Assembly: GCF_004683865.2 (NCBI RefSeq)
Contig: NZ_CP040764.1
Location: 124,001-188,000 of the forward strand
Direction: 5' to 3'
DNA from: Paracoccus liaowanqingii
GTDB lineage: Bacteria > Pseudomonadota > Alphaproteobacteria > Rhodobacterales > Rhodobacteraceae
Length of the DNA: 64,000 nucleotides
A program made the position numbers and the translations under genes. Every line of letters begins with the position of its first letter. The stretch's first letter is position 1. Below, piece after piece: positions 23,028 to 46,018 of this stretch. The notes under the pieces were generated by a model. It did not search any database. It was not told the origin of the DNA and was given only the letters and a program-made list of their open reading frames with translations.

Positions 23028-23052
23028 GGAACAAAGCGCCCCTCCACCGGTT
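23028..23052 (+). promoter_or_regulatory. EcfG-type general stress promoter for manganese catalase
   Basis: GGAAC at 23028-23032, 16-base spacer, GGTT at 23049-23052, ending 105 bases before the catalase start. It matches exactly the pattern found in front of genes in the 33-46 kb stress island. The published alphaproteobacterial general stress consensus is close to GGAAC-N16/17-CGTT. That it is used by the EcfG-like factor encoded at 35108 is inference. Confidence 0.75.
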
Positions 23053-32395: not shown

Positions 32396-33017
32396 GCGAG
32401 CCTCCGTCGTTGCGGCCACCGGCGCCGGGGATGGGGCCGGTCGGGGCGGGGCCAGTCGGAACGGTGCCGGTGGGGACCGCGCGAGCGGCGCTGGCGGCCG
32501 AGGGGGTGACGGTGGCGGTGCCGGCCGGGCCGACCGTCGCAGGGGCGTCCGGGGACGGGCGGCGGGTCATGCCGGCGTCGCCGAAGCCGCTGGTGTTCAT
32601 GGGGGTCGAGGACGGGACGGAGCCCGCGCGCAGGAAGCGGATCGCGGCGAAGCCCGCCAGGGCCGAGAGGCCCAGGAAGGCGCCCGGCTGGCGGCGCGCG
32701 AAGCTGCGCACGTCCTCGACCATCTGGGCCGGGTCGGTCGCGTTCAGGCTGCCCGCCAGACCGCTGACGCTGTCGGCGGCGCGGTCGAACATGGTGGCGA
32801 TGGACGAGTCCGGGTCGATCTCGGACCCAGCCTTGCGCAGGCCCGCGGCCACGCTTTCGGCGCGCTCGGCGATGCCCGAGCGCAGGTCCTTCTCGCGGCG
32901 CGTGACCTCGTCCTTGACGCTGCCCGCGAGGCGCGAGGCCTGGTCCGTGGCCTCGGACGCGATGTTGTCCTTGGCGGAGGTGCCGGTCGCCTTGGTGTGC
33001 GGATCGTCGACGGTCAT
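32388..33017 (-). CDS. Uncharacterised helical stress protein, first gene of DUF3618 operon
   Basis: 209 residues. The N-terminal half is charged and helical (SVKDEVTRREKDLRSGIAER), a short hydrophobic segment follows (PGAFLGLSALAGFAAIRFL), and the C-terminal third is Pro/Ala/Thr/Gly-rich and probably disordered. No family name can be given with confidence. It heads a unit with the holin-like and DUF3618 genes and has an exact GGAAC-N16-GGTT promoter 79 bases upstream. Confidence 0.75.
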   Translation of the reverse strand: MTVDDPHTKATGTSAKDNIASEATDQASRLAGSVKDEVTRREKDLRSGIAERAESVAAGLRKAGSEIDPDSSIATMFDRAADSVSGLAGSLNATDPAQMVEDVRSFARRQPGAFLGLSALAGFAAIRFLRAGSVPSSTPMNTSGFGDAGMTRRPSPDAPATVGPAGTATVTPSAASAARAVPTGTVPTGPAPTGPIPGAGGRNDGGSHA

Positions 33018-33095: not shown

Positions 33096-33120
33096 AACCG
33101 GCGAAGGCGGCCGATGTTCC
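33096..33120 (-). promoter_or_regulatory. EcfG-type promoter for the DUF3618 operon
   Basis: Read on the minus strand: GGAAC (33120-33116), 16-base spacer, GGTT (33099-33096). It points at the gene starting at 33017. The extended -35 reads GGAACATCGG, the same as at the SDR gene (34952). Confidence 0.78.
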
Positions 33121-33169
33121 AGGGCGGTTCCGGGAGGGGAGCCGCCGGGCCCCGGTGGCGGGCGCCGGA

Positions 33170-33222
33170 GCGGGGGTTTTGCACCCCCGCACCCCCGCAG
33201 GATATTTGGGCCAAGATGAAGG
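33170..33222 (+). repeat. Dispersed intergenic hairpin repeat, copy 2
   Basis: GCGGGGGT-TTTGC-ACCCCCGC (8-bp stem, 5-base loop), then ACCCCCGCAGGATATTTGGG, then an AAGATGAAGG tail. It is homologous in layout to 18071-18123. It lies in the gap between the divergent starts at 33017 and 33304. Confidence 0.65.
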
Positions 33223-33303
33223 GGTTGGGTGCCGTCATGGTGCAACTTCGCCAGGGCGGGGACGTTGGCGCGGGATCTTGGAGCGGCACAGGGGTTTTTG
33301 GGG

Positions 33304-33687
33304 ATGCAGCTGGACGAGGGAGTGGTGTTCTCGCTGTCGGATCACCTGGGGCGGCTGGCGGGGCCGCTGGAATGGCTGGTGGTGCTGATCGAGCTGTTCG
33401 CGATCGCCATCCTGATCCTGGGGGTCGTGCGGTTCCTGGGCTGGTTCCTGTCGGGCGAGGTCCTGCGGCGGGCGGCGCATGACCCGGGCCACCAGCTGAA
33501 CCGCGGGCGGCTTGCGCTTGGCCGGCACATCCTGTCGGCGCTGGAGGTGCTGATCGTGGCGGACCTGATCCGCACGGTGCTTCACCTGACCTTCGACAAC
33601 ATCCTGCTGCTGGGCGGGCTGGTGCTGATCCGGTCCTTCATCTCGGTGAGCCTGGACTACGAGATGCGGGCGCTGGAGACGGAGTGA
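33304..33687 (+). CDS. DUF1622 family membrane protein
   Basis: 127 residues from ATG 33304. Membrane helices lie at about residues 20-48 (WLVVLIELFAIAILILGVVR) and in the C-terminal half (IVADLIRTVLHLTF, then ILLLGGLVLIRSFISVSL). The conserved cytoplasmic stretch RLALGRHILSALEVLIVADL is typical of DUF1622. The role is unknown. It sits within the stress island and converges with the probable NepR gene; no EcfG-type site was found before it. Confidence 0.82.
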   Translation: MQLDEGVVFSLSDHLGRLAGPLEWLVVLIELFAIAILILGVVRFLGWFLSGEVLRRAAHDPGHQLNRGRLALGRHILSALEVLIVADLIRTVLHLTFDNILLLGGLVLIRSFISVSLDYEMRALETE

Positions 33688-33705
33688 CGGCCGGGGGCCG
33701 GCCGG

Positions 33706-33873
33706 TCACCTGTCGTCGGCCTCGCGCGCCCGGGCCAGGGCTTCCTGCAGGCGCAGGGCCAGTTCGCGCAGGCGCGGGGGGATGTCCTCGCGGGCGACCT
33801 CGGACATGAGATCCTGCATGGCCCGGTCCAGATGCGGATCCTCGGGCGAATTCTTGTCGTGATCGGTCATCAT
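33706..33873 (-). CDS. Probable NepR-type anti-sigma factor
   Basis: 55 residues from the ATG at 33873, with AGGAAAGGA upstream; an 11-residue longer start at 33906 is possible. The helical pattern LDRAMQDLMSEVAREDIPPR then LRELALRLQEAL resembles NepR proteins, which carry a conserved E-x-x-P-x-R-h-x-x-L core. NepR binds and inactivates EcfG until a PhyR-type anti-anti-sigma factor removes it. Such a protein is expected here because EcfG is encoded 1.2 kb away. It lies 144 bases after the SDR gene on the same strand and may be co-transcribed from that gene's EcfG-type promoter, giving negative feedback. Confidence 0.55.
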   Translation of the reverse strand: MMTDHDKNSPEDPHLDRAMQDLMSEVAREDIPPRLRELALRLQEALARAREADDR

Positions 33874-34017
33874 GTCCCCGGCTGTCCTTTCCTCGTCTGG
33901 TGGCATGCGGCCCGGCGCCTGTCACGCGATTTCATGGCTTGCGTGCGCCGGGGCATGTCACGATATGGTTGGCGGTCCGGAGCCGGGGCCGGGGCCGGGG
34001 CGTCGGTTCGGGCCGTC

Positions 34018-34875
34018 CTACATCATCGGCTTGCCGCCCGTCACGGCGATCGTGGCGCCCGAGACGTAGCTGGACATCGCCTCGGCCAGCATGACGTAGG
34101 CCGAGGCCAGCTCGACCGGCTGCGCGGGGCGGCCGATGGGATAGTCGGCGCCGAACTGCGCCACCTTCTCGGCGGGCATGCTGGCGGGGATCAGCGGGGT
34201 CCAGACCGGGCCCGGCGCCACGACATTGGCGCGGATGCCGCGATCGGCCAGCATCTGCGCCAGGCCCAGGGTGAAGTTCTGGATCGCGCCCTTGGTGGTG
34301 GCATAGGCCAGCAGCGTCGGGTTGGGCTGGTCCGAATTGATCGAGGCGGTGTTGATGATCGAGCTGCCGCGCGGCATATGCGCCACCGCCGCCTTGGTCA
34401 GATGGAACATCGCGTCAATATTGACCGCGAAGGTGTGGCGCCATTCGTCGTCGCTGATGTCCTCGATCCGGGCGAAGCTGCGCTGGTGGGCGGCGTTGTT
34501 CACCAGAATGTCGATGCGGCCGAATTCGGCCACCGTGCGGTCCACCACGTCGCGGCAGAACGCGGGCGAGGACAGATCGCCGGTCAGCACCAGGCAGCGG
34601 CGCCCGGCCTCGCGCACCAGGCGGGCGGTGTCGGCCATGTCGCGGTCCTCGTTCAGGCAGACCAGCGCCAAGTCGGCCCCCTCGCGGGCATAGGCGATGG
34701 CGACCGCCCGGCCGATGCCGCTGTCGCCGCCGGTGATCAGGGCGATGCGCTCGGGCAGGCGGTTCGCCCCGCGCCAGCTGTCCTCGCCGTGATCGGGAAG
34801 GGGGTCCATCTCGAGGAAGCTGCCGGGCAGGTCCTGCTGCTGTTCGGGAAAGGGCGGTGTGGGATGGTCGGTCAT
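34018..34875 (-). CDS. SDR family oxidoreductase, general stress type (YghA/YhxC-like)
   Basis: 285 residues from ATG 34875. An N-terminal extension rich in Pro/Gln precedes the Rossmann motif ALITGGDSGIGRAVAIAYAR near residue 45. The catalytic set is visible: NNAA in DILVNNAAHQ, Ser in IINTASINS, and Tyr/Lys in LLAYATTKGAI. The C-terminal GATIAVTGGKPMM is typical. The enzyme is a cytoplasmic NAD(P)-dependent dehydrogenase of the class often induced by osmotic or stationary stress. An exact EcfG-type promoter lies 53-77 bases upstream. Confidence 0.9.
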   Translation of the reverse strand: MTDHPTPPFPEQQQDLPGSFLEMDPLPDHGEDSWRGANRLPERIALITGGDSGIGRAVAIAYAREGADLALVCLNEDRDMADTARLVREAGRRCLVLTGDLSSPAFCRDVVDRTVAEFGRIDILVNNAAHQRSFARIEDISDDEWRHTFAVNIDAMFHLTKAAVAHMPRGSSIINTASINSDQPNPTLLAYATTKGAIQNFTLGLAQMLADRGIRANVVAPGPVWTPLIPASMPAEKVAQFGADYPIGRPAQPVELASAYVMLAEAMSSYVSGATIAVTGGKPMM

Positions 34876-34893
34876 GGCGCGTCTCCTGCAAAA

Positions 34894-34921
34894 CATCCGG
34901 ATCTGGGCATCCGGATCTGGG
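34894..34921. repeat. Perfect 14-base tandem duplication in the SDR leader
   Basis: CATCCGGATCTGGG occurs twice in direct succession (34894-34907 and 34908-34921). It spans the expected transcription start and leader between the promoter -10 (34928-34931) and the SDR start. Confidence 0.8.
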
Positions 34922-34927
34922 GCGTGC

Positions 34928-34952
34928 AACCGGCACCTGCATCCGATGTTCC
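34928..34952 (-). promoter_or_regulatory. EcfG-type promoter for the SDR gene (and possibly nepR)
   Basis: Minus strand: GGAAC (34952-34948), 16-base spacer, GGTT (34931-34928). The extended GGGAACATCGG matches the site at 33120. It is divergent from the sigma factor gene. Confidence 0.78.
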
Positions 34953-35046
34953 CGGCCTTCGGTGCCCCGGGCGCCGGCCCGCGTCGGCGCAAACCGGCCG
35001 GTCGGGGCCACGGGCTGCCCGATCGGGCCGGGATGCGCGCCGCGAT

Positions 35047-35072
35047 GGAACCCCGCCCCGGTCGGACCTGTT
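35047..35072 (+). promoter_or_regulatory. EcfG-like promoter before the sigma factor gene
   Basis: GGAAC (35047-35051), 17-base spacer, TGTT (35069-35072), 36 bases before the sigma factor ATG. The -10 and spacing differ slightly from the island consensus, but both are within the published range. It implies positive autoregulation. Confidence 0.6.
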
Positions 35073-35107
35073 GTTTCACCAGCGCAGATTGGGGGGCGCC
35101 ATCCCGC

Positions 35108-35581
35108 ATGTCCGACAATATCATGGAACACATCCCCGCCTTGCGCGCCTATGCGCGCTCGCTCTGCGGACGGGCGCATGACGCCGACGATCTGGTCCAG
35201 GAAACCCTTCTGAGGGCCATCGAATATGCCGACCGCTACAAGCCCGGCAGCTACATGCGGGCCTGGCTGTTCACGATCATGCGCAACCGCTTCTACACCA
35301 ACGTCAAGAAGGCCGCGCGCGAGCGGACCGGCGGCGCGGACTGCGTGTCGGGCACGCCCATCTCGCAGCCGGGGCAGGAATGGTATCTGCGCCATCGCGA
35401 GCTGTGCGACCAGCTGGAGCGGATGCCGGCGCATTACCGCGAGGCGCTGGTCTTGGTCTCGGTCTTGGGGGAAAGCTACATCCGCGCGGCCGAGGTGATG
35501 GACTGCGACATCGGCACGGTCAAGAGCCGGGTGAACCGGGCCCGGGGGATCCTGCGCAAGGCCTTGGAACCCGAGTTCTGA
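35108..35581 (+). CDS. ecfG: EcfG-type general stress response sigma factor
   Basis: 157 residues from ATG 35108. Region 2 includes LRAYARSLCGRAHDADDLVQ and YMRAWLFTIMRNRFYTNVKK. Region 4 reads MPAHYREALVLVSVLGESYI and CDIGTVKSRVNRARGIL, the EcfG signature end. No anti-sigma transmembrane partner is beside it; instead a NepR-like gene, a PhyR-like gene and an HWE kinase are close, as in alphaproteobacterial general stress systems. It should recognise GGAAC/GTT promoters, several of which surround it, including one before itself. Confidence 0.85.
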   Translation: MSDNIMEHIPALRAYARSLCGRAHDADDLVQETLLRAIEYADRYKPGSYMRAWLFTIMRNRFYTNVKKAARERTGGADCVSGTPISQPGQEWYLRHRELCDQLERMPAHYREALVLVSVLGESYIRAAEVMDCDIGTVKSRVNRARGILRKALEPEF

Positions 35582-35711
35582 CGTCCGGCACGCTCGTGTA
35601 CCGATCGGTTCAGTTTGAAAAAAGACCTGCGATATTCAGTGCTTCCAATGCTATGGGGAACGGCACGCGGCCAAGATGCCGCAGGTGGCCGCCGCAAATT
35701 TCTCTTTTTAA

Positions 35712-35747
35712 GAACAAATGTTCTAGAACGACACGTTCAAGTTGTTC
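35712..35747. promoter_or_regulatory. Overlapping GAAC/GTTC palindromes upstream of the PhyR-like gene
   Basis: GAACA-AA-TGTTC (35712-35723), GTTCTAGAAC (35720-35729, perfect) and GAACG-ACA-CGTTC (35726-35738) overlap, and a further GTTC follows at 35744. They lie in an AT-richer stretch 35-70 bases before ATG 35782. Such stacked dyads suggest a dimeric repressor or activator site. The spacing does not fit the GTTC-N7-GTTC LexA box of alphaproteobacteria. Confidence 0.5.
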
Positions 35748-35781
35748 CTAATGGCGGTCAGACGAAAGGAAGGCGCGCCAG

Positions 35782-36222
35782 ATGATTCAACATCCCCATT
35801 CCAATCTGACAACCTATGTTCCCGCGCTGCGGCTGTATGCGAGGGTCCTGTGCGGCAATGCCGGGACCGGCGACGGACTGGTCGCCTGGTCGCTTCATCG
35901 GGCCGACGAGCTGGCCTGCCGCGATGCGGCCCAGAGATGCCGCTTCACGTGGCTTCTGTCCACGCTGCGCGATCTGCATCGCAGCGGCATGCTGGACCGG
36001 GCCTCGAACATGCCCTGCGCGAATGACCTTCCGGGGCACGAGGATCTGGCCCTGCTGATGACGCTGCCCCCGGCAGAGCGCGAGGCCCTGACCCTGGTCC
36101 GGTTCATGGGCTGCACGCGGGTCAACGCGGCGCGGATCATGGGCGTGTCGCGGTCCAAGGTGGACCGGCTTCTGGCCATGGCGCGCCTGCGCCTGGATGG
36201 CCCGCCGATGGGATCCGCCTGA
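35782..36222 (+). CDS. Stand-alone sigma-like protein resembling the N-terminal half of PhyR
   Basis: 146 residues from ATG 35782 (AGGAAGG eight bases upstream). A region-2-like part (ALRLYARVLCGNAGTGDGLV) has lost the acidic DDLVQ-type core-binding motif seen in the true sigma factor next door and instead reads GDGLVAWSL, like PhyR. The region-4-like part reads LPPAEREALTLVRFMGCTRV then ARIMGVSRSKVDRLLAMARL. PhyR normally continues into a receiver, but this protein stops here. It may bind the NepR-like protein constitutively or with a separate receiver. A minor ECF sigma factor is the alternative. Confidence 0.6.
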   Translation: MIQHPHSNLTTYVPALRLYARVLCGNAGTGDGLVAWSLHRADELACRDAAQRCRFTWLLSTLRDLHRSGMLDRASNMPCANDLPGHEDLALLMTLPPAEREALTLVRFMGCTRVNAARIMGVSRSKVDRLLAMARLRLDGPPMGSA

Positions 36223-36229
36223 GCCGTCG

Positions 36230-36254
36230 GGAACATCGCATGCCCGGAAAGGTT
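36230..36254 (+). promoter_or_regulatory. EcfG-type promoter for the Crp/Fnr regulator
   Basis: GGAAC (36230-36234), 16-base spacer, GGTT (36251-36254), 64 bases before ATG 36318. It starts eight bases after the PhyR-like gene's stop. Confidence 0.75.
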
Positions 36255-36317
36255 CCATCCCTTGCAGCGACGACTGCACATCGGGCGCCCCACGGGGCGC
36301 CGCGGGAATGGAGACGC

Positions 36318-37061
36318 ATGACCGACAACCTACTGGCGCGGAAACTGGGACAGGTGGTCCAGTTGTCCGCCGCCGATCTGGCCCTTCTGGACGGGCTGAG
36401 CGAGCGGTCCTACACCGTCGGCTCGGGCGAGGATATCATCAAGCAGGGCGACGAGCCGCGCTATGTCCACCTGGTGCTGGACGGCATCGTCTGCCGCAAC
36501 AAGGTGCTGCCCAATGGCGACCGGGCCATCGTGGGCCTGCTGCTGCCGGGCGACCTGTGCGACCTGCACATCGCGATCCTGGGGCGGATGGACCACAACA
36601 TTTCGGCCCTGTCGGACTGCCGGATCGTCGACATCCCGCATCGCACGGTGGTGGAGATGACCTCCAGCTCGCGGCGGCTGGCGATGGCGCTGTGGTGGGC
36701 GACGCTGGTCGACGAGGCGATCCTGCGCGAATGGCTGGTGGGCCTGGGACGGCGCCGGGCGGACCGGCGCGCGGCGCATCTGCTGTGCGAGATCCTGGCG
36801 CGGCTGGAGGCGGTGGGGCGCGGTCAGGACCGGGTCGTGCCGCTTGGGCACCAGCAATTGGCCGATGTGCTGGGGATCACCTCGGTCCATCTGCACCGGG
36901 TGCTGGGAACGCTGAAATCGCAGGGGCTGATCGTGCAGCAGGATCGCCGCATCGTCGTGAACGACGTCGCGGCGCTGCGCGAATACGGTCAGTTCGATCC
37001 CGACTACCTGCACCGCGACGACAATCTCAGTCCGCTGGCCGAATGGATGCTGGCGGGCTGA
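36318..37061 (+). CDS. Crp/Fnr family transcriptional regulator
   Basis: 247 residues from ATG 36318. The cyclic-nucleotide-binding-type beta-roll covers about residues 20-130 (IIKQGDEPRYVHLVLDGIVC, LLLPGDLCDL). The C-terminal winged helix has GHQQLADVLGITSVHLHRVL. The N-terminal cysteine cluster of FNR is absent, and the Arg/Glu ligand set of true Crp is not obvious. It lies between the PhyR-like gene and the kinase genes and has its own EcfG-type promoter, so it probably extends the stress response to a second tier of targets. Confidence 0.88.
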   Translation: MTDNLLARKLGQVVQLSAADLALLDGLSERSYTVGSGEDIIKQGDEPRYVHLVLDGIVCRNKVLPNGDRAIVGLLLPGDLCDLHIAILGRMDHNISALSDCRIVDIPHRTVVEMTSSSRRLAMALWWATLVDEAILREWLVGLGRRRADRRAAHLLCEILARLEAVGRGQDRVVPLGHQQLADVLGITSVHLHRVLGTLKSQGLIVQQDRRIVVNDVAALREYGQFDPDYLHRDDNLSPLAEWMLAG

Positions 37062-37080
37062 TCGCGCGTCCGGTCCGGGT

Positions 37081-37440
37081 TCAGCCGAACAGCAGCTTGG
37101 CGCAGCGCTTCAGGTCGACGGGCTTCTCGCACAGCGGGATGTCGCGATAGGGGGCGGCGATGGTGGTGCGGTCGTATCCCGAGGCGAAGACCACCGGCAC
37201 GCCCCGCGCCCGCAGCCGGTCCACCACGTCATAGGACATGGTGCCGCCCAGGTTGATGTCCACCACCGCGCCGTCCAGCCGTTGCGTCCGCGCGATCAGG
37301 CCAAGCGCATGGTCGATGCTGGCCGCCGGCCCCACCACCTGCGCCCCCGCCGATCCGAACGAAGTCGCCAAGTCGTCGGCGGCGAAGTAGTCGTCCTCGA
37401 CCAGCAGGATATGGCGGCCCGACAGCTGCGGCGCGGTCAC
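37081..37440 (-). CDS. Single-domain response regulator (FASGY receiver)
   Basis: 119 residues from GTG 37440, which overlaps the kinase stop (GTGA), so it is coupled to the kinase. Acidic pocket HILLVEDDYFAADDLA, phosphoacceptor Asp in GAVVDINLGG, PVVFASGYD and the Lys in LCEKPVDL are all in place. No output domain is present. The FAT/FASGY style is that of receivers working with HWE/HisKA2 kinases in alphaproteobacterial stress signalling. It may act as a phosphate relay or sink. Confidence 0.85.
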   Translation of the reverse strand: MTAPQLSGRHILLVEDDYFAADDLATSFGSAGAQVVGPAASIDHALGLIARTQRLDGAVVDINLGGTMSYDVVDRLRARGVPVVFASGYDRTTIAAPYRDIPLCEKPVDLKRCAKLLFG

Positions 37441-39328
37441 GAGGCCATCTCCGCCATCCGCGGCCGGTCCAGCGGCAGGTCGATGCTGCAATCCAGGCAA
37501 TCCGCGCCCCAGGTGATAGCTGGTCAGCGCGCCCAGGCTGTAGGGCAGGGCCTTCTCGATCAGGCGCCGGCCATAGCCGCCGTCCGAGGTCTCGGCCTCG
37601 ACGGGACCGCGCAGGATGCCCTCGTCGTGCCAGTCGATCATCAGGCGGCGGCCCGTCTCGCCCTCCTCGACCCGCCAGCGGACGTTCAGCCTCCCGCCGC
37701 AGCCCGACAGCGCGCCGTATTTGCGGGCATTGGTGGCCAGCTCGTGCAGGCCCAGGGCCAGGGTCTGGACCAGCGTCGGGCGGATGCGGACCTGGGGGCC
37801 GTCCAAGCGGACCGCCTCGCCCTCCTTGGCGCCAAGCGCGTCCAGTTCCAGCCGCAGCAGGGCGCGCAGGGTGATGGGTTCCTGTTCGGCCCGCGACAGC
37901 AGGCCCTGCACCCGCGACAGCGCCGACAGGCGGTCGTTGAAGCGGTCGAGGAAGGCCGGCGTCGGGCCGGTGCCCGCCATGGTCTGGGTGGCGATGGACC
38001 GGACCACGCTGATCAGGTTGCGGGTGCGGTGCTGCAATTCGGCGACCCAGCACGCTCTGGCGTTCATGCGCTTCCTTCTGGGCCTGCACCTCGGTCGAGG
38101 TGCCCAGCCATTCGGTGATGCGGCCGGTCTTGTCGCGCACCGGGCTGGACCGGGTGCGGTGCCACAGATAGGCCTTGTCGGTGCTGCGGCGGATGCGGAA
38201 TTCGGTGTCCAGCAGGCCCTCGACCCGCGCCCGGTCCCAGGCCAGCATCGCCCGGTCGCGGTCGTCGGGATGCACGACATCCAGCCAGCCCCATTGGCAG
38301 GCCTGATCCTGCGACTGCCCGGTGAAGGACATCCATTGCGGGCTGGCCCAGATCCAGTGCCCGCGGTCATGGGACCGCCAGACCAGCTGGGGGATGCCCT
38401 CCATCAGCGTGCGCAGCGATTCGTCGGCCTTGTGGCGTTCGGTGACGTCCTGGCCGATCTTGACGAAGCCGGTCAGCATGCCCTGGCGGTCGTGCAGCGC
38501 GCGCACCACGCCCTCGATGAAGACGCGCGAGCCGTCCTTGCACAGATGCTCGCGCATGTTCAGCGCCGAGCCGTTGCGGCTGGCCGCGTCGATGTCCCGG
38601 TGCGGCTGGCCGATCTTGCGATCCTCGGGGGTATAGACCAGCGCGCCGGGCCGGCCCACCGCCTCCTCGGCGGTCCAGCCGAAGACCCTCTGGGCGCCGG
38701 GCAGCCAGTCGGTGACGATGTCGTCGGGATCGGTCACGAAGATCGCGTAGTCGGTGATCGATTCGACCGTCAGGCGAAAGCGTTCCTCGGAATGGCGCAG
38801 GGCGTTCATCTTGAACAGCCGGTCGATCAGCGGCCCCAGGATGGCGCTGTAGGTGCGCAGGAACTGGATGTCGTGTTCGGTGAAGTGATGCGGCCGGGTG
38901 TCGTCGACCTGCAGCAACCCGTAGACGACACCGCCCGGCAGCATGATCGGCACGTTGGCCAGCGCCACCACGCCCTGGTCGCGCATGAACTGCGGGACCT
39001 CGAAGCGGGTCTCCTTTGCGATGTCCGGGCTGGTGATGGGGCGGCCGCAATTGATCGAATAGCTCTCGGACGAATGGTCGGACATGGGCACGCGGACCTG
39101 TCCCACGACGTCCCGGGTCCAGCCGATCCCCGCGCGCAGGAACAGGGTGCGGCCGTCGTCCTGCAGCTCCAGCACCTTGGCGCGGCGGGTGCCCAGGGCG
39201 GCGGCGACCAGCCGGCAGGCCTCGTGCAGCACCGCGTCCAGGTCGTCGTGCAGCGTGGCGAAATCGCCGAAATCGGCCAGCGTCTTCTGGCGCGCCGCGT
39301 ATTTCCGGATGATGTCGTCTTCGGTCAT
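37437..39328 (-). CDS. GAF-PAS-PAS HWE-family histidine kinase, reading frame interrupted twice
   Basis: From ATG 39328 the frame encodes a GAF domain (about residues 15-170), two PAS domains (about 185-305 and 315-430) and then breaks. One extra G near 38046-38048 shifts the frame; in the next frame the kinase core continues as VAELQHRTRNLISVVRSIA, with an N-box HELATNARKYGAL. A second extra G near 37518 shifts the last 25 residues. Corrected, it has about 629 residues and no transmembrane segment. HWE kinases often phosphorylate PhyR-type proteins. The breaks are probably sequence errors in G runs. Confidence 0.85.
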
Positions 39329-39590
39329 GAAGGGCCGGACCCCGCTGATGAAATCGAATTGCAGTCTATGCACCCACAGGCAACTTCCGAGTGCAAAACG
39401 CAATAGTTTAATTCATGCCAGATTGTGGATGCAGACATGCAACAAATGTGCAACTCTATATGTCTAAGTCCGTCGAACCGGCAGTCTTGTCGCTTCATAA
39501 ATTTTTCGTGCGACCCGGATTAGCGCATGTCGGTCGGGGCAGAAAACCGCCCAGACCTCTGTCTGCGATCCCGGAGGGGTGAGAAAAGAC

Positions 39591-39959
39591 ATGATGTACC
39601 GAATCATGATCGTCGAGGACGAATACTGGACCGCGATGCATCTGGCCAATGAGGCCCGCGATCGCCGCGCCATCGTCCTGGGACCGATCAGCTCGATCGA
39701 GAAGGCCGTCAAGTTCCTGGAAAGCGCCGAGCCGCCGGATGTCGCGATTCTCGACATCCAGCTGCGCTTCGACGAGGTCTTTCCCTTGGCCGACATGATG
39801 CGCGAGGCGCGGATCCCGTTCATCTTCGCCACCGGCTACGAGCCCGAAGACCTGCCCGAGCGCTTCTCGGACGTCCCGCATTTCGTAAAGCCGTTCATGG
39901 GCGGCGAATGCATCGAGGCGGTGCTGGACCTGGCGGCGGCCAAGCGCGCCGCCGAATAG
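39591..39959 (+). CDS. Single-domain response regulator (FATGY receiver)
   Basis: 122 residues from ATG 39591 with GGAGGGG upstream; GTG 39579 in the same frame is too close to the RBS. Motifs are IMIVEDEYWTAMHLA, phosphoacceptor Asp in VAILDIQLRF, FIFATGYEPED and HFVKPFMGG. It is divergent from the HWE kinase. Its receiver is of the type fused to PhyR in other species, and here it stands alone. It could be the missing regulatory half of the sigma-like protein at 35782, which is a hypothesis only. Confidence 0.87.
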   Translation: MMYRIMIVEDEYWTAMHLANEARDRRAIVLGPISSIEKAVKFLESAEPPDVAILDIQLRFDEVFPLADMMREARIPFIFATGYEPEDLPERFSDVPHFVKPFMGGECIEAVLDLAAAKRAAE

Positions 39960-39986
39960 CCGCGTCAGACGCCTTGCGACATGGAA

Positions 39987-40014
39987 AAAGGCCGGGCATC
40001 GCTGCCCGGCCTTT
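39987..40014. terminator. Bidirectional intrinsic terminator
   Basis: AAAGGCCGGGCA and TGCCCGGCCTTT form a perfect 12-bp stem around a 4-base loop, between the convergent receiver gene and the gene ending at 40042. Confidence 0.88.
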
Positions 40015-40041
40015 CGTCGTTTGGTATCCCTGACTGCGGGA

Positions 40042-40530
40042 TCAGTTCGCCGGAGCGGGCTCCGGGCTTTGCAGCGGGACCGTCGTGGTCTCGGTGCCCT
40101 CGACCGGGGCGGTCGTCTCGTCGGGCTCGATGATCTCGACCGTCACGCTCTCCTCGGCGATATCCGCCGGGGCGGCATCGGCCTCGATGTCGGCCGCGGG
40201 GGCCGTGTCTGTGGCAGGCGCTGCCTCGGGCGTCACGGCGGGGGCCGGTTCGACCTCGGGCTCGGGCTCGACCGGATCGACCACGACCGGGGTGGGCGTC
40301 GTGTCGGCCTCGGCGTCGTCCATCTGCGTCTCGGCGACCGGCTCGGTCGTCTCGACCTCGTCATCCGACGACATCATGCCCAGAAGGAAATAAGCCAGGA
40401 TCGCCAGCACGATCACGCCGATGACGATCGGCAGGACCTTGGACTTCTTCTCCGTCTCGGCGGGCCGGTCGGTGGCGTAGGGATCGGTCGTGCGGGGATG
40501 GTTCGGGTCGTTGATGGGGGTCTTGGCCAT
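40042..40530 (-). CDS. Single-pass membrane protein with acidic Pro/Glu/Thr-rich tail
   Basis: 162 residues. A polar N-terminus of about 30 residues is followed by one membrane helix (VLPIVIGVIVLAILAYFLLG) and an extended tail dominated by Glu, Asp, Pro, Ala, Val and Thr. It probably projects into the periplasm. No enzymatic motif is seen. It lies 143 bases after the PRC-barrel gene on the same strand, and no separate stress promoter was found, so it may be read from that gene's promoter. Confidence 0.72.
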   Translation of the reverse strand: MAKTPINDPNHPRTTDPYATDRPAETEKKSKVLPIVIGVIVLAILAYFLLGMMSSDDEVETTEPVAETQMDDAEADTTPTPVVVDPVEPEPEVEPAPAVTPEAAPATDTAPAADIEADAAPADIAEESVTVEIIEPDETTAPVEGTETTTVPLQSPEPAPAN

Positions 40531-40673
40531 GAAAGTCTCCTGTCTGGCGGGGGGCCGCACCCGCGTCGCCGGAAGGGTGTCGGCCGGGAAAGTCGGTCGT
40601 CAAGGCCCGGCTGCCGTCCAGGGACTGCAGCCGGGCCATCGAAGCATCGTGTCAGGCGCCGTAGACGGGCGTC

Positions 40674-41660
40674 TTACTCGACTTCGTATTCCGGCATGGT
40701 CTCGATCGAAGCCGAGTCGGTGGCGATGAAGCCGCGGATCTCGTCACCATCGGTCGCCTGCTGGAAGGACACTTGGTCCATCGGCAGCGACACGTTGCGC
40801 TCGCCCATTCCCAGGAATCCGCCGACACCGACGATGACCATCTCGATCTGGCCGTCATCCGTCAGCACCAGGTCGTTGACCTGACCGATGTTTTCGTCAT
40901 CGGCGGAATAGATGGCCACGCCCTCGACGGTTTCCGCCGTCAGCATCTGCATGTCGGCGGCCTGATAGCCGTCGCGCATCTCGGTGTCCATCATCGGCGC
41001 GCCGGTCACGTCGACCTGCGGTTCGGCCTGCGTCACGTCGACATTGGCTTCGCCGCCTTCGACGACCTCGACCTCGGCTTCGGCTTCCTCGACCGAGACA
41101 TCGGCCTCGCCGCCCTCCTGGATGTTCACGTCCGGCTCGGCGGTGCGCAGATTGACCTCGGCCTGCTCGGCTGCGGCCACATCGACCTCGGCTTCGGATT
41201 CCTGCACGTTCACCTCAGCTTCGGCGTCACTGACGACGATGTTGGGCTCGGGTGCCTGGTAGCGGACAACGGGCTCGGGAGTGTCGACCATCACGGTCGG
41301 CTCGCCCTCGGCCACTTCCACGGTGGGATCGGCCATGCGGACCGCGACGCGCGGCTCGGGGATGTCCACGGTGACGGTCGGCGGAGCCTGGGTCACGGTG
41401 ATGGTCGGCGCGCACTGCTCGACAGTCACCTGCGGCGGCGCCTGCTGGACCGTCACGGTGGGCTCGGGCTGATCGACGGTCACCTCGGGGGGCGACTGGC
41501 TGACATCGACCTGGGGGGCGGGGACGGTGACGTCGACCTGCGGATCGGCCTGGTCGACGATGACCTCGCCGCCCATCGGAGTGGTGGCGGCTTCCTGTGC
41601 GACGCTGGCGGTGGCCAGCAATGCGGTGGTGGCGACGGTTCCCATAAGCTTCATGAACAT
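40674..41660 (-). CDS. Secreted PRC-barrel protein with a 9-residue PxVxV repeat
   Basis: 328 residues. A signal peptide ends near residue 21 (ATASVAQ). Residues about 31-226 consist of a 9-residue repeat whose Pro and Val recur exactly every ninth position (Pro 40, 49, 58, 67, 76, 85; Val 33, 42, 51, 60, 69, 78). The early units are Pro/Gln-rich and the later ones Glu/Ala-rich. A PRC-barrel domain follows (GVAIYSADDENIGQVNDLVL, MVIVGVGGFLGMGERNV). It is likely periplasmic or surface-bound. An EcfG-like promoter precedes it. Confidence 0.82.
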   Translation of the reverse strand: MFMKLMGTVATTALLATASVAQEAATTPMGGEVIVDQADPQVDVTVPAPQVDVSQSPPEVTVDQPEPTVTVQQAPPQVTVEQCAPTITVTQAPPTVTVDIPEPRVAVRMADPTVEVAEGEPTVMVDTPEPVVRYQAPEPNIVVSDAEAEVNVQESEAEVDVAAAEQAEVNLRTAEPDVNIQEGGEADVSVEEAEAEVEVVEGGEANVDVTQAEPQVDVTGAPMMDTEMRDGYQAADMQMLTAETVEGVAIYSADDENIGQVNDLVLTDDGQIEMVIVGVGGFLGMGERNVSLPMDQVSFQQATDGDEIRGFIATDSASIETMPEYEVE

Positions 41661-41712
41661 GAAGTATCTCCTGATTTAGATTTAATGCTATTGCTAGCGT
41701 TCCTGTCCACCC

Positions 41713-41737
41713 AACACGAGAAATGCTTTGACGTTCC
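41713..41737 (-). promoter_or_regulatory. EcfG-like promoter for the PRC-barrel gene
   Basis: Minus strand: GGAAC (41737-41733), 16-base spacer, TGTT (41716-41713), 53-77 bases before the gene start, in an AT-rich gap. One base of the -10 differs from the island consensus. Confidence 0.62.
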
Positions 41738-41882
41738 AATAATAATTAACTTCATTTAATTGGGATTATTCCGGGTTAATCCAGGAACAAACCGGCGCTT
41801 AAAAGTATAACACGGGTTTTTGAAAATCCGGGTCTGGCGCCTCGGCAATGGCCCGGCCCATCCGCCCTTTGGACATGCAAAC

Positions 41883-41905
41883 GGGCGGCGCTTTCGGCGC
41901 CGCCC
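41883..41905 (-). terminator. Hairpin downstream of the secreted-protein gene at 41924
   Basis: GGGCGGCG and CGCCGCCC form a perfect 8-bp stem with a 7-base loop, 19 bases beyond the stop on the minus strand. The following T-run is weak. Confidence 0.55.
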
Positions 41906-41923
41906 GGTCATGATGTCCCGCGA

Positions 41924-42817
41924 TCACTCGCTGCGGTCGTCCACGATGATCTCGACGCCGTTCTCGGTCCGATAGACGGCGATCACCTGGTCGGCGGCGT
42001 GGCCCTCGGCCTCCAGCATCTCGACGATGCGGGCGTCCTGCTGCAGGGCGGCCTGCAGGGCCTGGCGGCTGTCACCGGCCTCGTCCATCGCCTCGTCCAG
42101 ATCGGTGCGCGTGCCCATCGAGGTGCCCATGACCTGCGTGGTGCCCGTGGCCAGACCTTCCGAGATGCCCGCCGGGCTGGCCGTCGACTGACCCGCCGTG
42201 CCCGCGGCCGAGCCGGGCGCGCCGCCCGAGCCCTCGACCGTCTCGTTGGTCGTGCGGCCGCCGGTCATCGGGGGATTGCCCTCCTCGGCGGTGGCCATCG
42301 AGGCGCCGCCCGCCGCGTCGACCTCGCTCAGGGGCAGGATCTGCAGCCGGGTCGTGGTCTCCAGCGTCTCGACGACGTCCTGGCCGATCTGGCCCGCGCG
42401 CAGGTCGGTGGCCAGCTGGGTGCGGGTCAGCGACGCGGATTCGGCAGAGCCGCCCGAATCCGCCGCGGAGCCGGTGTTCTGGCCGCTGCCGGTGATCGTG
42501 GGCTCGGTCCCCTCGGGGGCGGGTTCGTCCGAGCCGGAATCGGCGCCGGTCACCGGCGCGTCGGTCGCGGTGCCGGTCGCCTCCATGTCCGCCGCACCGT
42601 CCATGTCCGCGGTGTCGTCCGTGCCTTGGGTGACGTCCGTCGCGGCAGGCTGCTCGCCGCCGCCGCCGACGACCGATCCGGCAGCACCCGCGCCGCCGCC
42701 CAGCTCCTGTTCGGTCTCGGCGGTGGGGGTGATTGCGGCGTCCTGCGCCCAAACCGGGGTGGCCAGGGCGGTGGCCAGAAGGGCTGCGTAGCTGGTCTGC
42801 ATCAGATGTCGTGCCAT
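41924..42817 (-). CDS. Secreted low-complexity protein, stress-island member
   Basis: 297 residues from ATG 42817. The signal peptide ends near residue 25 (ATPVWAQD). A Gly/Ala/Thr/Asp-rich region follows (about 30-130), then a short ordered segment (TRTQLATDLRAGQIGQDVVE, LQILPLSEVDAAGG), and a compact C-terminal part (LQAALQQDARIVEMLEAEGH, IAVYRTENGVEIIVDD). No known family is recognised. An exact EcfG-type promoter 53-77 bases upstream makes stress induction likely. Confidence 0.75.
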   Translation of the reverse strand: MARHLMQTSYAALLATALATPVWAQDAAITPTAETEQELGGGAGAAGSVVGGGGEQPAATDVTQGTDDTADMDGAADMEATGTATDAPVTGADSGSDEPAPEGTEPTITGSGQNTGSAADSGGSAESASLTRTQLATDLRAGQIGQDVVETLETTTRLQILPLSEVDAAGGASMATAEEGNPPMTGGRTTNETVEGSGGAPGSAAGTAGQSTASPAGISEGLATGTTQVMGTSMGTRTDLDEAMDEAGDSRQALQAALQQDARIVEMLEAEGHAADQVIAVYRTENGVEIIVDDRSE

Positions 42818-42869
42818 GTCGTGTCGTCCTTTTCCGGGGGTCCGCCGTTCGCGGGCGGTGCGGGGATCC

Positions 42870-42894
42870 AACCGGGGGCAGGGGGGAATGTTCC
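42870..42894 (-). promoter_or_regulatory. EcfG-type promoter for the secreted-protein gene
   Basis: Minus strand: GGAAC (42894-42890), 16-base spacer, GGTT (42873-42870). Confidence 0.78.
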
Positions 42895-43039
42895 GGGGCG
42901 CCGGGGGCCCTGCGCCCGATCGCCGCGCAAACCCGGTCACGTTCGCGCGTGACTGTCGTGACCCCGGGCCCGGGGACGAAAAGGACCGGCACCCTGGGCG
43001 GGGTGCCGGTCCCGGAAAGCCGATCCGCGACAGCTGGTA

Positions 43040-43489
43040 TCAGGCGGTCTCGGAGGCGCGGATCATCCACTCGCGGTGGCGCTGCTCGTCCGCCAGCGCC
43101 TTGCGGAAGAAGATCTTGGACTTCGGCAGCGCGTCGCTGTGGGTCGAGGCGCGCTCGTAGGCGGTCACGGTGTCCTCCTCGTTCGTGCGCATCGCCTTGA
43201 GGATCGCGCCGTCGCCGAAGAGGCCCGCCAAGGCGACCTTGCCGGTGGTCAGCATCTGCTTCATGTCGCCGTCCAGCGGCGCCTCGGCCCCGATCTCGGC
43301 GGCCATCTCGTTCAGGACCTCCAGATGCTGCAGGTGATCCTGGCGGAACGCCTCGACCTGCGCGACCAGGGTGTGGTCGGACAGGCGCGAGGTGGTGGAT
43401 TCGTAGGCCGCGATGGCGTCGCGTTCCAGAAGGATCAGGTTGGTGACCAGATCCGCGATCAGGTCTTCGGTTCCGACGGTGGTAACCAT
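43040..43489 (-). CDS. Ferritin-like domain protein (DUF2383-like)
   Basis: 149 residues from ATG 43489. Four-helix layout with carboxylate/His metal ligands: LERDAIAAYESTTSRL, then FRQDHLQHLEVLNEMAAEIG, then MRTNEEDTVTAYERA, then FFRKALADEQRHREWMI. This points to a di-iron or di-manganese centre used in storage or peroxide handling. It has an exact EcfG-type promoter and no downstream partner on the strand within 140 bases. Confidence 0.82.
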   Translation of the reverse strand: MVTTVGTEDLIADLVTNLILLERDAIAAYESTTSRLSDHTLVAQVEAFRQDHLQHLEVLNEMAAEIGAEAPLDGDMKQMLTTGKVALAGLFGDGAILKAMRTNEEDTVTAYERASTHSDALPKSKIFFRKALADEQRHREWMIRASETA

Positions 43490-43544
43490 GGGCAGTCTCC
43501 TTTCGGGCGCCGACCCGAAACGGGGCCGGCATCGGGGGGCGTGC

Positions 43545-43569
43545 AACCGGGCGGGGCGCGGGATGTTCC
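43545..43569 (-). promoter_or_regulatory. EcfG-type promoter for the ferritin-like gene
   Basis: Minus strand: GGAAC (43569-43565), 16-base spacer, GGTT (43548-43545), 56-80 bases before the start at 43489. It lies only 26 bases beyond the 3' end of the alcohol dehydrogenase gene. Confidence 0.78.
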
Positions 43570-43594
43570 CGGCCCGCCCGGCGGCAACGGGGCG

Positions 43595-44764
43595 TTAGGG
43601 CGTCAGCACGACCTTGGTCCATTCGTTCTGGTTGTCGGCGAAGTTGCGATAGCCGCGCGGCGCCTCTTCCAGCGAGAGGCGGTGCGAGATCAGGAAGGTC
43701 GTGTCGATCTTGCCCTCCATGATCATGTCCAGAAGCCGGCTGCCGTAGCGCTGCACATGGGTCTGGCCGCTGCGAACCTGCAGGCCCTTCTCCATCAGCG
43801 CGCCAAGCGGGAACTTGTCGGCCATGCCGCCATAGACGCCCGGGATCGACACGCGGCCGCCCTTGCGCACCGCCATCAGCGCCATGCGCAGCGCGTGGGC
43901 CCGGTCGGCGCCGATGCCGACCTTCTGCTTGGCGGTGTCCAGCAGGTTGTCGGGCGCCATGCCGTGGCTTTCCATGCCGACCGCGTCAATGACCGCGTCG
44001 GGGCCCATGCCGCCGGTCATCTCCATCAGCGCCTCCAGCACATGGGTCTGGGTATAGTCGATGACGTCGGCACCCAGGCCCCGGGCGAGGGCCAGGCGGT
44101 TCGGGTGGTGGTCGATGGCGATCACCCGCCCCGCGCCCATCAGCAGCGCGGATTGCACGGCGAACAGGCCGACCGGCCCGCAGCCCCAGACCGCGACGCT
44201 GTCGCCCGGCAGGATGTCGCAATTCTCGGCGGCCATCCAGCCGGTGGGCAGGATGTCGGACAGAAACAGCACGTCCTCGTCGGGCACGCCGTCGGGGACC
44301 ACGATCGGCCCCACGTCGGAATAGGGCACGCGCACATATTCCGCCTGACCGCCGGGATAGCCGCCGGTCATGTGCGAATAGCCGAAGAGCCCGCCGACTG
44401 CATGGCCGTACAGCAGCTCGGACGCCTCCTGCGTCTCGACCGGGTTGGCGTTGTCGCAGGCCGAGAACAGCGTGGCCTTGCAGAAGAAGCAGCTGCCGCA
44501 GGAGATGGTGAAGGGCACCACGACCCGCTGGCCCTTCTTCAGCGTCGATTTCGGGCCGGTCTCGACCACCCGGCCCATGAACTCGTGGCCCAGGATGTCG
44601 CCGCCCTGCAGCCCCGGAATGACCGCGTCATACAGGTGCAGGTCCGATCCGCAGATCGCGGTCGAGGTGACCTCGATGATCGCGTCGCGGGGGTTGACGA
44701 TCTGGGGATCGGGGACCGTGTCCATGCGGACGTCGTGCTTGCCGTGCCAGGTCAGTGCGCGCAT
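43595..44764 (-). CDS. Zinc-dependent alcohol dehydrogenase, formaldehyde dehydrogenase-like
   Basis: 389 residues from ATG 44764, overlapping the preceding stop (TGATG). Catalytic zinc ligands are in TAICGSDLHLYD and GHEFMGRVVE. The structural-zinc cysteines are CGSCFFCKATLFSACDN. The nucleotide-binding motif is AVWGCGPVGLFAVQ. The length and the SDLH/GHEF pattern fit the glutathione-independent formaldehyde dehydrogenase-like group. It is co-transcribed with an SRPBCC protein from an EcfG-type promoter, so a role in detoxifying stress-derived aldehydes is plausible. Confidence 0.9.
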   Translation of the reverse strand: MRALTWHGKHDVRMDTVPDPQIVNPRDAIIEVTSTAICGSDLHLYDAVIPGLQGGDILGHEFMGRVVETGPKSTLKKGQRVVVPFTISCGSCFFCKATLFSACDNANPVETQEASELLYGHAVGGLFGYSHMTGGYPGGQAEYVRVPYSDVGPIVVPDGVPDEDVLFLSDILPTGWMAAENCDILPGDSVAVWGCGPVGLFAVQSALLMGAGRVIAIDHHPNRLALARGLGADVIDYTQTHVLEALMEMTGGMGPDAVIDAVGMESHGMAPDNLLDTAKQKVGIGADRAHALRMALMAVRKGGRVSIPGVYGGMADKFPLGALMEKGLQVRSGQTHVQRYGSRLLDMIMEGKIDTTFLISHRLSLEEAPRGYRNFADNQNEWTKVVLTP

Positions 44765-45378
44765 CAGGTATTCCTCTGGTTCGAAGCGGTGGCGATCTCG
44801 CCGGTTTCCAGCAGCATCTTCAGCCGCTTCAGTTCCTGCCGCCCGCGGGTCTTGGGATCGATGCCGCGCAGCTTGGCGGCCCAATGGCCCAGAAGCCCGT
44901 AGGGCGGGACATAGGCGACATGGGCCTCGACCTCGGTGCCGCGCCCGGCGGGGGCGTCGCGCAGGCGGATCTTGGCCTCGACCTGGAAGTCGGCACCCTC
45001 GACCGAGCGCCAGGCCAGGGATTCGCTAGCGCGGTCCTCGACCAGCCGCGTCTCGATGCGGAAGGGGCCGTGGCCGCCGTCGATCACCCAGATGGGGCGG
45101 TCGGGCGTGCCCTCGATGGCGACCAGGTCCTGCATGAACAGGGCCAGCTGCCTGGGATCGCGCCACATGGCGTGGATGCGGTCGCGGGGCGCGTCGATGG
45201 TGACGGTGCGGCCCGTGACCTGATAGCCGCCGAACTGCAGCCGCTTGGCGGTGCGGCCCGGCGCGCTGTCGGCGGGATGGCGGGGGCCGGGCGTCATCAG
45301 GCGGGCCACCCCCACCACGCCCAAGGCCAGGACGGCCACGCCGAGGATGGGGAAAAGATCGGATCTGCGGTCGGTCAT
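44764..45378 (-). CDS. SRPBCC (START/polyketide cyclase-like) family protein
   Basis: 204 residues from ATG 45378, preceded by AAGGAGG. An N-terminal membrane helix (LFPILGVAVLALGVVGVARL) is followed by the SRPBCC fold (VTGRTVTIDAPRDRIHAMWR then DPRQLALFMQDL). Such domains bind hydrophobic ligands. It shares a transcription unit with the alcohol dehydrogenase gene and carries an exact EcfG-type promoter. Confidence 0.83.
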   Translation of the reverse strand: MTDRRSDLFPILGVAVLALGVVGVARLMTPGPRHPADSAPGRTAKRLQFGGYQVTGRTVTIDAPRDRIHAMWRDPRQLALFMQDLVAIEGTPDRPIWVIDGGHGPFRIETRLVEDRASESLAWRSVEGADFQVEAKIRLRDAPAGRGTEVEAHVAYVPPYGLLGHWAAKLRGIDPKTRGRQELKRLKMLLETGEIATASNQRNT

Positions 45379-45427
45379 GAAACCTCCTTGTCGCAGGGAG
45401 CGCCGCGTGCGGCTGCGAGGGGGCCAG

Positions 45428-45452
45428 AACCGGACCGATGGGCTTTTGTTCC
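45428..45452 (-). promoter_or_regulatory. EcfG-type promoter for SRPBCC / alcohol dehydrogenase
   Basis: Minus strand: GGAAC (45452-45448), 16-base spacer, GGTT (45431-45428), 50-74 bases before the start at 45378. Confidence 0.78.
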
Positions 45453-45473
45453 CGCCCACCCCGTCCGCGCGCC

Positions 45474-45950
45474 TCAGCGCGGGATGACGGTCATCGAGCC
45501 GTCGGTCTCCAGCACCACCGACTTTACCTGCGTCAGATCGGTCTTGCCGCTGGAGCGCAGCGCGGCGTCGATCTCGTCGCGGGTGACGCGCTGCGTCTTC
45601 ATCGCGCCCTCCAGCGGGCGGCCGTCATGGACCAGCAGCGTCGGCTCGGCCTTGATCAGCGCGCGGAAGCGATCCGAGCGGACGGAAGCCCAAGTGATCG
45701 CATATTGCAGATAGACCAGCAGGGCCAAGGCCACGACCCCCTCGACCAGGGGCACGCTGGCGGTCAGCAGCACGGTGGCCAGGGTCGAGCCCAGGGCCAC
45801 GGTCACCACCAGATCGAAGGCGTTCATCTTGCTCAGCGTCCGCTTGCCCGAGGCGCGCAGCATGACGATCAGCGCCAGATAGGCCAAGAGGCCGACGATG
45901 ACCGTGCGGATCACGCCTGCCCAGTCATCGAAGAACATCGGATCGGACAT
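45474..45950 (-). CDS. DUF421 (YetF-like) membrane protein
   Basis: 158 residues from ATG 45950; MKGRP at 45965 is an alternative start. Three membrane helices at the N-terminus (VIRTVIVGLLAYLALIVMLR, FDLVVTVALGSTLATVLL, VPLVEGVVALALLVYLQYAI) precede a cytoplasmic domain with LLVHDGRPLEGAM and RDEIDAALRSSG, typical of DUF421. The role is unknown. A near-match EcfG-type site lies 44-68 bases upstream. Confidence 0.86.
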   Translation of the reverse strand: MSDPMFFDDWAGVIRTVIVGLLAYLALIVMLRASGKRTLSKMNAFDLVVTVALGSTLATVLLTASVPLVEGVVALALLVYLQYAITWASVRSDRFRALIKAEPTLLVHDGRPLEGAMKTQRVTRDEIDAALRSSGKTDLTQVKSVVLETDGSMTVIPR

Positions 45951-45993
45951 GGGTCGGCCTTTCATCGCGGAAAGCTGTGGGGTGAGCCGGGTC

Positions 45994-46018
45994 AAGCCGC
46001 CCCGTCCCCGATGGTTCC
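45994..46018 (-). promoter_or_regulatory. Near-match EcfG-type promoter for DUF421 gene
   Basis: Minus strand: GGAAC (46018-46014), 16-base spacer, GCTT (45997-45994), one mismatch to the island consensus. Confidence 0.45.

Follow-up and report, generated by a model that had tools for sequence, protein, structure and literature searches.

A GGAACA-N15-GGTT promoter class clustered around a non-canonical EcfG-like sigma factor gene in Paracoccus liaowanqingii, probably an accessory plasmid-type stress module

Extra copies of the sigma factor EcfG are present in about half of the alphaproteobacterial genomes considered in one report, where their role is described as 'not satisfactorily explained' (PMC3892343); the same report describes extra non-canonical EcfG copies in Rhizobium etli, including a plasmid-borne subgroup, and in its account of EcfG2 a search for a target motif gave nothing. 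Multiple EcfG and NepR paralogues are reported for Methylobacterium (PMC4814048), flexible −10 words for Sphingopyxis (PMC7083833) and a PhyR locus of specialised function for Rhodobacter sphaeroides (PMC5830050), and the rpoE5 locus of Sinorhizobium meliloti is described as containing an unannotated open reading frame (ORF) similar to RsiA1 and RsiA2 (PMC6180224). Considered herein is a 64-kb stretch of the P. liaowanqingii genome (C10:124001–188000, hereafter the window), within which an initial annotation had placed, at positions 33096–46018, a dense stress regulon defined by a GGAAC-N16-GGTT promoter and containing its own EcfG sigma factor. That a real and uniform EcfG-type promoter class precedes stress-type genes, themselves grouped around the gene of an EcfG-like sigma factor, was borne out. 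The island is probably an accessory, plasmid-type Paracoccus stress module, comprising a non-canonical EcfG sigma factor, a NepR-like brake and target operons with GGAACA-N15-GGTT promoters.

The window contains eight GGAAC-N16-GGTT sites, compared with a mean of 0.11 in shuffled sequence, where eight or more were reached in none of 100 shuffles. The sixth base is A in every one of them, so that they can equally be written GGAACA-N15-GGTT, as is done below. Each is intergenic, correctly oriented and situated 50–113 bp 5′ of a predicted start, the background for upstream placement in the right orientation being 5.2 % of the strand-positions of the window. Gene starts were predicted throughout by a simple codon-usage finder trained on the window, except in a check of four plasmids, which used the annotation of the records. 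Six of the eight sites fall within the island and the other two precede genes for a manganese catalase and a glgC-like protein. The nine sites initially described are all present, with the places, spacers and −10 words given for them, although GGAACA occurs in six rather than seven, the three variants being GGAACC, GGAACG and GGAACC. Missing from that description were the two outlying sites, a NepR-like ORF and the differing type of promoter before the sigma factor gene. The sites of the window, variants included, are as follows.

23028 to 23052, forward strand: GGAACA-N15-GGTT, 106 bp upstream of the manganese catalase gene, outside the range initially described.
33096 to 33120, reverse strand: GGAACA-N15-GGTT, 79 bp upstream, before the DUF3618/holin-like operon.
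34928 to 34952, reverse strand: GGAACA-N15-GGTT, 53 bp upstream, before the short-chain dehydrogenase/reductase (SDR) gene, or possibly SDR plus the NepR-like ORF.
35047 to 35072, forward strand: variant GGAAC-N17-TGTT with C as the sixth base, a promoter-like site 36 bp before the sigma factor gene.
36230 to 36254, forward strand: GGAACA-N15-GGTT, 64 bp upstream, before the Crp/Fnr-type regulator gene.
41713 to 41737, reverse strand: variant GGAACG-N15-TGTT, 53 bp upstream, before the PRC-barrel gene.
42870 to 42894, reverse strand: GGAACA-N15-GGTT, 68 bp upstream of the predicted start, before a secreted-protein-like gene.
43545 to 43569, reverse strand: GGAACA-N15-GGTT, 56 bp upstream, before the ferritin-like gene (DUF2383).
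45428 to 45452, reverse strand: GGAACA-N15-GGTT, 50 bp upstream, before the SRPBCC/alcohol dehydrogenase (ADH) unit.
45994 to 46018, reverse strand: weak variant GGAACC-N15-GCTT before the DUF421 gene, a form shared by the DUF421 gene of genome G031.
60611 to 60635, forward strand: GGAACA-N15-GGTT, 113 bp upstream of the glgC-like nucleotidyltransferase gene, outside the range initially described.

The site before the Crp/Fnr-type gene (36230–36256) overlaps a GGAACC-N15-TGTT on the opposite strand to form a near-palindrome, and similar overlaps are seen in other islands.

With regard to related loci, orthologues of the window sigma factor gene were used to retrieve the surrounding islands, 20 in all, from 18 Paracoccus genomes; G009 contributes three of these, so that islands overlap in genomes, and several named loci repeat genomes of the numbered genus sample. 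In the 20 islands GGAACA-N15-GGTT occurs 63 times: 45 sites are upstream of genes, four are inside genes on the same strand, one is antisense, six are upstream in the wrong orientation and seven lie elsewhere. The motif is thus not equally frequent within genes or in the wrong orientation, a pattern that, by the initial annotation, would have refuted its stress-regulon reading. Other −10 words are similarly placed (upstream in 15 of 16 cases for TGTT, seven of ten for CGTT and two of two for AGTT), as is GGTT with a spacer one base longer (six of six). Displaced spacers of 12–15 and 18–21, counted from GGAAC with A as the sixth base and any NGTT, are upstream in two of 18 cases. The sixth base is A in 45 of the 47 upstream GGTT sites with a spacer of 16, and an alignment of 67 upstream sites displays C two bases 5′ of GGAACA (82 %), T or A directly after it and C before the −10 word (66 %). 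On the plasmids of P. marcusii, P. aminovorans, P. yeei and Paracoccus sp. AK26, as annotated in their records, 26 of 27 GGAACA-N15-NGTT sites are upstream, where the background is 7.7 % of positions; the AK26 sites repeat island L086 and are not independent of the 20 islands. In a broader set of 80 loci, L108 being omitted from its groups, 25 additional loci, largely of other Rhodobacteraceae (including L126, L128 and L130, of less certain family) again have the G form as the commonest, with 40 of 54 upstream, and 37 Rhizobiales loci display a mixed −10 pattern. The GG at −10 had initially been regarded as a local feature; it is instead the commonest NGTT form in both the 20 genus islands and the 25 further loci, and is equally found in 17 of the 20 nepR-ecfG promoters considered below.

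The gene at the centre of the island is the following.

35108 to 35581, forward strand: extracytoplasmic function (ECF) sigma factor, a non-canonical EcfG/ECF15-like paralogue of 157 residues, with Pfam matches to Sigma70_r2, PhyR_sigma2 and Sigma70_r4_2.

Its architecture is that of an ECF protein, with regions 2 and 4 only. It was initially taken to be the EcfG of this genome. The canonical gene, however, resides at C1:3100794, where phyR and ecfG adjoin a nepR (NepR E 1.8 × 10−12 at C1:3100604), and its product is only 40 % identical to the window protein. No full PhyR was found near the window gene when the proteins of the 33–46 kb region, all but the ADH, were scanned. As phyR accompanies ecfG on C1 and not the window gene, and given this low identity, the window protein can be ruled out as canonical EcfG, and sequence comparison establishes it as a distinct paralogue. 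In a tree of 88 rows, which includes neither R. etli EcfG2 nor S. meliloti RpoE5, the window protein and its kin separate from the canonical copies (97/99); their branch is long, the tree program gave a long-branch warning and bootstraps are unsettled. Within this clade the Paracoccus members fall together (98/94), and the clade also includes paralogues from other Rhodobacteraceae and from Rhizobiales (Rhizobium, Mesorhizobium). Orthologues at E < 1 × 10−45, a cut placed by us at the gap between 5.2 × 10−46 and 3.5 × 10−33, are present in 43 of the 125 Paracoccus genomes of the genus sample. Plasmid records with a match at E 1 × 10−30 number 157, with Sinorhizobium (75) first, followed by Rhizobium (28) and Paracoccus (13). 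All 24 of the named sigma-bearing genomes searched have an EcfG match, which is a separate gene in 22; in the two Devosia genomes the best EcfG match (43–45 % identical) is the paralogue itself. The ratio of non-synonymous to synonymous divergence (dN/dS) of the window sigma factor gene against G031 is about 0.05.

Close to this gene lies a small ORF.

33706 to 33873, reverse strand: NepR-like ORF of 55 residues, a candidate anti-sigma factor, conserved near the sigma factor gene in most islands.

A relative of this ORF is found in 36 of the 43 sigma-bearing genomes vs two of the 82 others (Fisher p 6 × 10−22); a single Paracoccus member served as the query, so that absences, amongst them the seven sigma-bearing genomes without a match, are soft. 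Compared by hhalign, the profile of the small ORF matches that of ORFs near the Rhizobiales sigma copies at 98 %, and the ORF that converges on the rpoE5-like gene of S. meliloti pSymB scores 33.8 bits against it. The only NepR of this genome to pass the Pfam cut-off is the copy on C1. Because its resemblance to NepR is weak and its setting parallels that at S. meliloti rpoE5, the ORF is termed NepR-like and not NepR; its product probably restrains the window sigma factor. Only ten of 78 NepR-like rows have a GGAAC-N16/17-NGTT site within 350 bp, and a general feedback loop is consequently not claimed. Four islands (L079, L086, L088 and L090) display a second, weak NepR-like match on the strand of the sigma factor gene.

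Two kinds of site can be distinguished, one before nepR-ecfG and mostly also before the paralogue gene, the other before the targets. Among nepR-ecfG loci, 20 contain a correctly oriented GGAAC, invariably followed by C or T; the spacer is 17 in 17 loci and 16 in three, and the −10 word is GGTT in 17, TGTT in two and CGTT in one. One further locus has only a GCAAC site. The promoters of the paralogue genes themselves, assessed in 21 islands, are GGAAC[C/T] in 16, and 13 of these have CATT at −10. A GGAACC-N15-CATT site precedes the sigma factor gene on plasmids of P. marcusii and P. aminovorans as well as on S. meliloti pSymB, the last being identical to the published rpoE5 promoter; that promoter is described as mapped, with a transcript that rises on RpoE2 overexpression (PMC6180224). 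This division suggests, without amounting to proof, that canonical EcfG may start the paralogue and that the paralogue may read the GGAACA class, and it is quite possible that GGAACA targets are recognized by both sigma factors. In L079, L083, L086, L088 and L090 a GGAACA-GGTT site lies 135–325 bp upstream of the sigma factor gene, and in L079, L083 and L090 the predicted sigma frame is longer (184–187 residues).

The module proposed above draws upon findings that are demonstrated at the level of sequence, namely the promoter class with its placement and its specific spacer, the status of the sigma factor as a separate paralogue, the co-occurrence of the NepR-like ORF with it and the spread of sites over several of the smaller contigs. 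In operation, PhyR and NepR would mediate the release of canonical EcfG under stress; the paralogue gene would be transcribed from its GGAAC[C/T]-type site, by EcfG or by its own product; the paralogue would then transcribe the GGAACA...GGTT targets; and the NepR-like protein would exert negative control. A more specific version can be put forward only tentatively: a two-tier relay in which canonical EcfG would read GGAAC[C/T] sites, including that of the paralogue, and the paralogue would read GGAACA-N15-GGTT, making the whole a transferable regulon with its own sigma factor and NepR-like brake, and its motif the one missing for the EcfG2/RpoE5 subgroup.

How far the motif extends beyond the window was assessed in the same assembly (4.93 Mb, 11 contigs). 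Genome-wide, the bare GGAAC-N16-GGTT pattern occurs only 68 times vs 48 for reversed-pattern controls; with the sixth base included, GGAACA-N15-GGTT occurs 43 times vs six. Of these 43 sites, 11 are on C1 (3.27 Mb), one is on C5 and 31 are on C7, C9, C10 and C11, which together make up about 1.04 Mb. The island is accordingly not self-contained, contrary to what had been supposed, since 23 of the 31 lie outside the window. On C1, three of 11 sites are upstream, vs 23 of the 30 examined on C7, C9, C10 and C11, one site at the end of C7 being left out of this count. Across the genus sample the mean density of GGAACA-N15-GGTT is 5.18 per Mb in genomes with the paralogue vs 2.94 per Mb in those without it, with a control of about 1.2 (p 1 × 10−10, uncorrected for kinship).

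These figures bear on a simpler account, in which GGAACA-N15-GGTT sites would be plain canonical-EcfG promoters of this lineage and the window sigma factor a minor or redundant copy. Such an account would accommodate the GGTT at −10 in 17 of 20 nepR-ecfG promoters, the published EcfG consensus of GGAAC-N16-CGTT with its flexible −10 as described in PMC7083833, the one overexpression target given for S. meliloti RpoE5 in PMC6180224, and the motif excess that remains in genomes without the paralogue. It does not readily explain why motif density tracks the presence of the paralogue, why nepR-ecfG sites are GGAAC[C/T] when targets are GGAACA, or why upstream placement is so much rarer on C1 than on the four smaller contigs, and it is on balance unlikely. 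As a signature of canonical EcfG in the genome, GGAACY-N16-GGTT displays no clear enrichment in this assembly (G000; 13 vs 9). Genome G116, which is motif-rich and in which the paralogue was not found, was considered as a clean natural experiment and rejected, as its NepR-like ORF lies near a contig end and the sigma factor gene may be lost or unassembled; the frame after that ORF looks transposase-like by eye, and 22 of 26 GGAAC-N16/17-NGTT sites are upstream in the ten regions retrieved, which had been selected around sites already known.

A number of observations weigh against the proposed module itself. Genomes without the sigma factor keep 2.5 times the control count of the motif, an excess tempered by four of them (G034, G046, G047 and G075), in which 24 of 83 sites were classified and four of the 24 are upstream. 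GGAACA-N15-CGTT is mildly above control (ratio 1.26–1.44), and CGTT may thus be used too. With regard to the two kinds of site, five of the 21 sigma factor genes have GGAACA-GGTT in place of the C/T form, and the window's own is TGTT with N17, not CATT. For the small ORF, similarity to canonical NepR (a set of 40 rows, one of them, L218, poor) is weak by hhalign, at 24 % directly for the Paracoccus/Rhodobacteraceae set and 80 % for the Rhizobiales set, which includes L128; there is no Pfam family at E 0.1, NepR PF18557 included, and no NCBIfam match, and comparison of its alignment with the PDB returned no NepR chain and only marginal, unrelated matches. Plasmid status is a further such point, in that RepC matches occur on C7 and C11 and also on C1, and none on the 255-kb C10. 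As RepC is found on the 3.27-Mb C1 but not on C10, it cannot settle which contigs are plasmids; C10 is tentatively taken to be one because of its size and of plasmid-borne orthologues of the sigma factor gene.

The other genes of the island, and those behind the two outlying sites, are as follows.

23158 to 23982, forward strand: manganese catalase, candidate target (Mn_catalase, E 3 × 10−81).
30970 to 32004: DUF3618 gene, downstream in its operon.
31994 to 32395: Phage_holin_3_6 gene, in the DUF3618 operon.
32388 to 33017, reverse strand: first gene of the DUF3618 operon, 209 residues, itself with no Pfam match.
34018 to 34875, reverse strand: SDR oxidoreductase, candidate target (adh_short_C2, E 6 × 10−56).
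35782 to 36222, forward strand: rare second sigma-like or PhyR-SL-like protein without a receiver, 146 residues, its best NCBIfam match being to PhyR residues 4–133, below cut-off.
36318 to 37061, forward strand: Crp/Fnr-type regulator, candidate target (HTH_Crp_2, cNMP_binding).
37030 to 39328, reverse strand: GAF/PAS/HWE histidine kinase in three frames, vs an intact homologue of 630 residues in G031.
39591 to 39959, forward strand: stand-alone receiver resembling the receiver half of PhyR (residues 138–241), below cut-off.
43040 to 43489, reverse strand: ferritin-like DUF2383 protein, candidate target by domain match.
Start at 60748: glgC-like gene (NTP_transferase, E 2 × 10−49), the designation 'glgC-like' being our reading.

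Three of these genes invite a further explanation, namely a split PhyR in which the 146-residue protein would act as a NepR decoy, with input from the stand-alone receiver and the HWE kinase, so that the module would not depend on the canonical switch. The two below-cut-off matches, to PhyR 4–133 and 138–241, and the kinase nearby are in keeping with this. The 146-residue protein, however, also matches sigma region 4 (Pfam), and just two proteins, one of them its own, are found at E 0.001 in a set of 5.8 billion; among the fetched loci it is seen in G031. It also evolves rapidly (dN/dS about 0.39 vs G031, with amino-acid-changing divergence around five times that of the sigma factor), and the kinase is spread over three frames, with shifts near 38050 and 37507 that reflect either a decayed gene or sequence errors. 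A split PhyR is accordingly highly improbable. That the motif is a repeat due to chance or to the GC-rich composition of the genome, for which the bare count of 68 vs 48 might speak, is already contradicted by the 43 vs six obtained with the sixth base A and by upstream placement, orientation and spacer specificity that recur in the 20 islands and four annotated plasmids, and can be dismissed.

A second dense cluster is located at G000:C11:188543–211608 (L206 and L207), where some 23 kb contain eight GGAACA-N15-GGTT sites; for four of these, no gene is predicted in the 250 bp that follow. Genes in L195 (C7) and L207 (C11) match the 209-residue first gene of the DUF3618 operon over its first 70 residues, where they are nearly equal, and both follow GGAACAGGGCGTCGTTTTATTGGTT (sites C7:183232 and C11:204801); this gene thus seems to be present on three contigs of one genome.

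That related bacteria have extra EcfG copies was known, but not the promoter code of these copies, and a literature search, with most subscription journals outside its reach, found no title or abstract opening that describes this Paracoccus module. What is new, as judged from predicted promoters, is that targets carry GGAACA, that promoters of the sigma factor gene and of nepR-ecfG are mostly GGAAC[C/T], and that the sigma factor gene often has CATT at −10. A motif with so sharp a spacer and sixth base, tied to the paralogue and its partner ORF, renders the role of extra EcfG copies directly testable, and suggests that general stress protection may travel as a clustered accessory regulon on plasmids. 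With the canonical PhyR–NepR–EcfG switch, itself present on C1, the system shares the −35 GGAAC, a spacer of 16–17 and stress-type targets; it differs in that no PhyR was found beside the window sigma factor, which forms a separate clade and has a small partner only remotely NepR-like. Sphingopyxis granuli, as described in PMC7083833, similarly has two EcfG paralogues, EcfG1 and EcfG2, and a flexible −10, although its paralogues are encoded divergently and its consensus is CGTT, compared with a −10 that is mostly GGTT, and copies located on separate contigs, in the present case. R. etli EcfG2, for which a plasmid-borne subgroup is described, is, as in the window, a second EcfG-like copy beside the canonical one, and on R. 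etli pRetIE4803c (L306) an EcfG2-like sigma factor is accompanied by YciF, YciE, a Crp-type regulator and two nearby GGAACA-N15-GGTT sites, in a Paracoccus-like layout; no target motif is reported for EcfG2 in that account (PMC3892343), whilst the window has an evident one, together with a NepR-like ORF near the sigma factor gene. S. meliloti RpoE5 (ECF15) is likewise a paralogue, encoded on the megaplasmid pSymB, and is 45 % identical to the window sigma factor; the 52-residue ORF convergent on rpoE5 matches the profile of the small ORF, and the GGAACC-N15-CATT promoter of its gene is the form found in Paracoccus islands (CATT in 13 of 21), the window's own being TGTT with N17. For RpoE5 one overexpression target is described (PMC6180224), whereas the Paracoccus islands are full of target-like sites.

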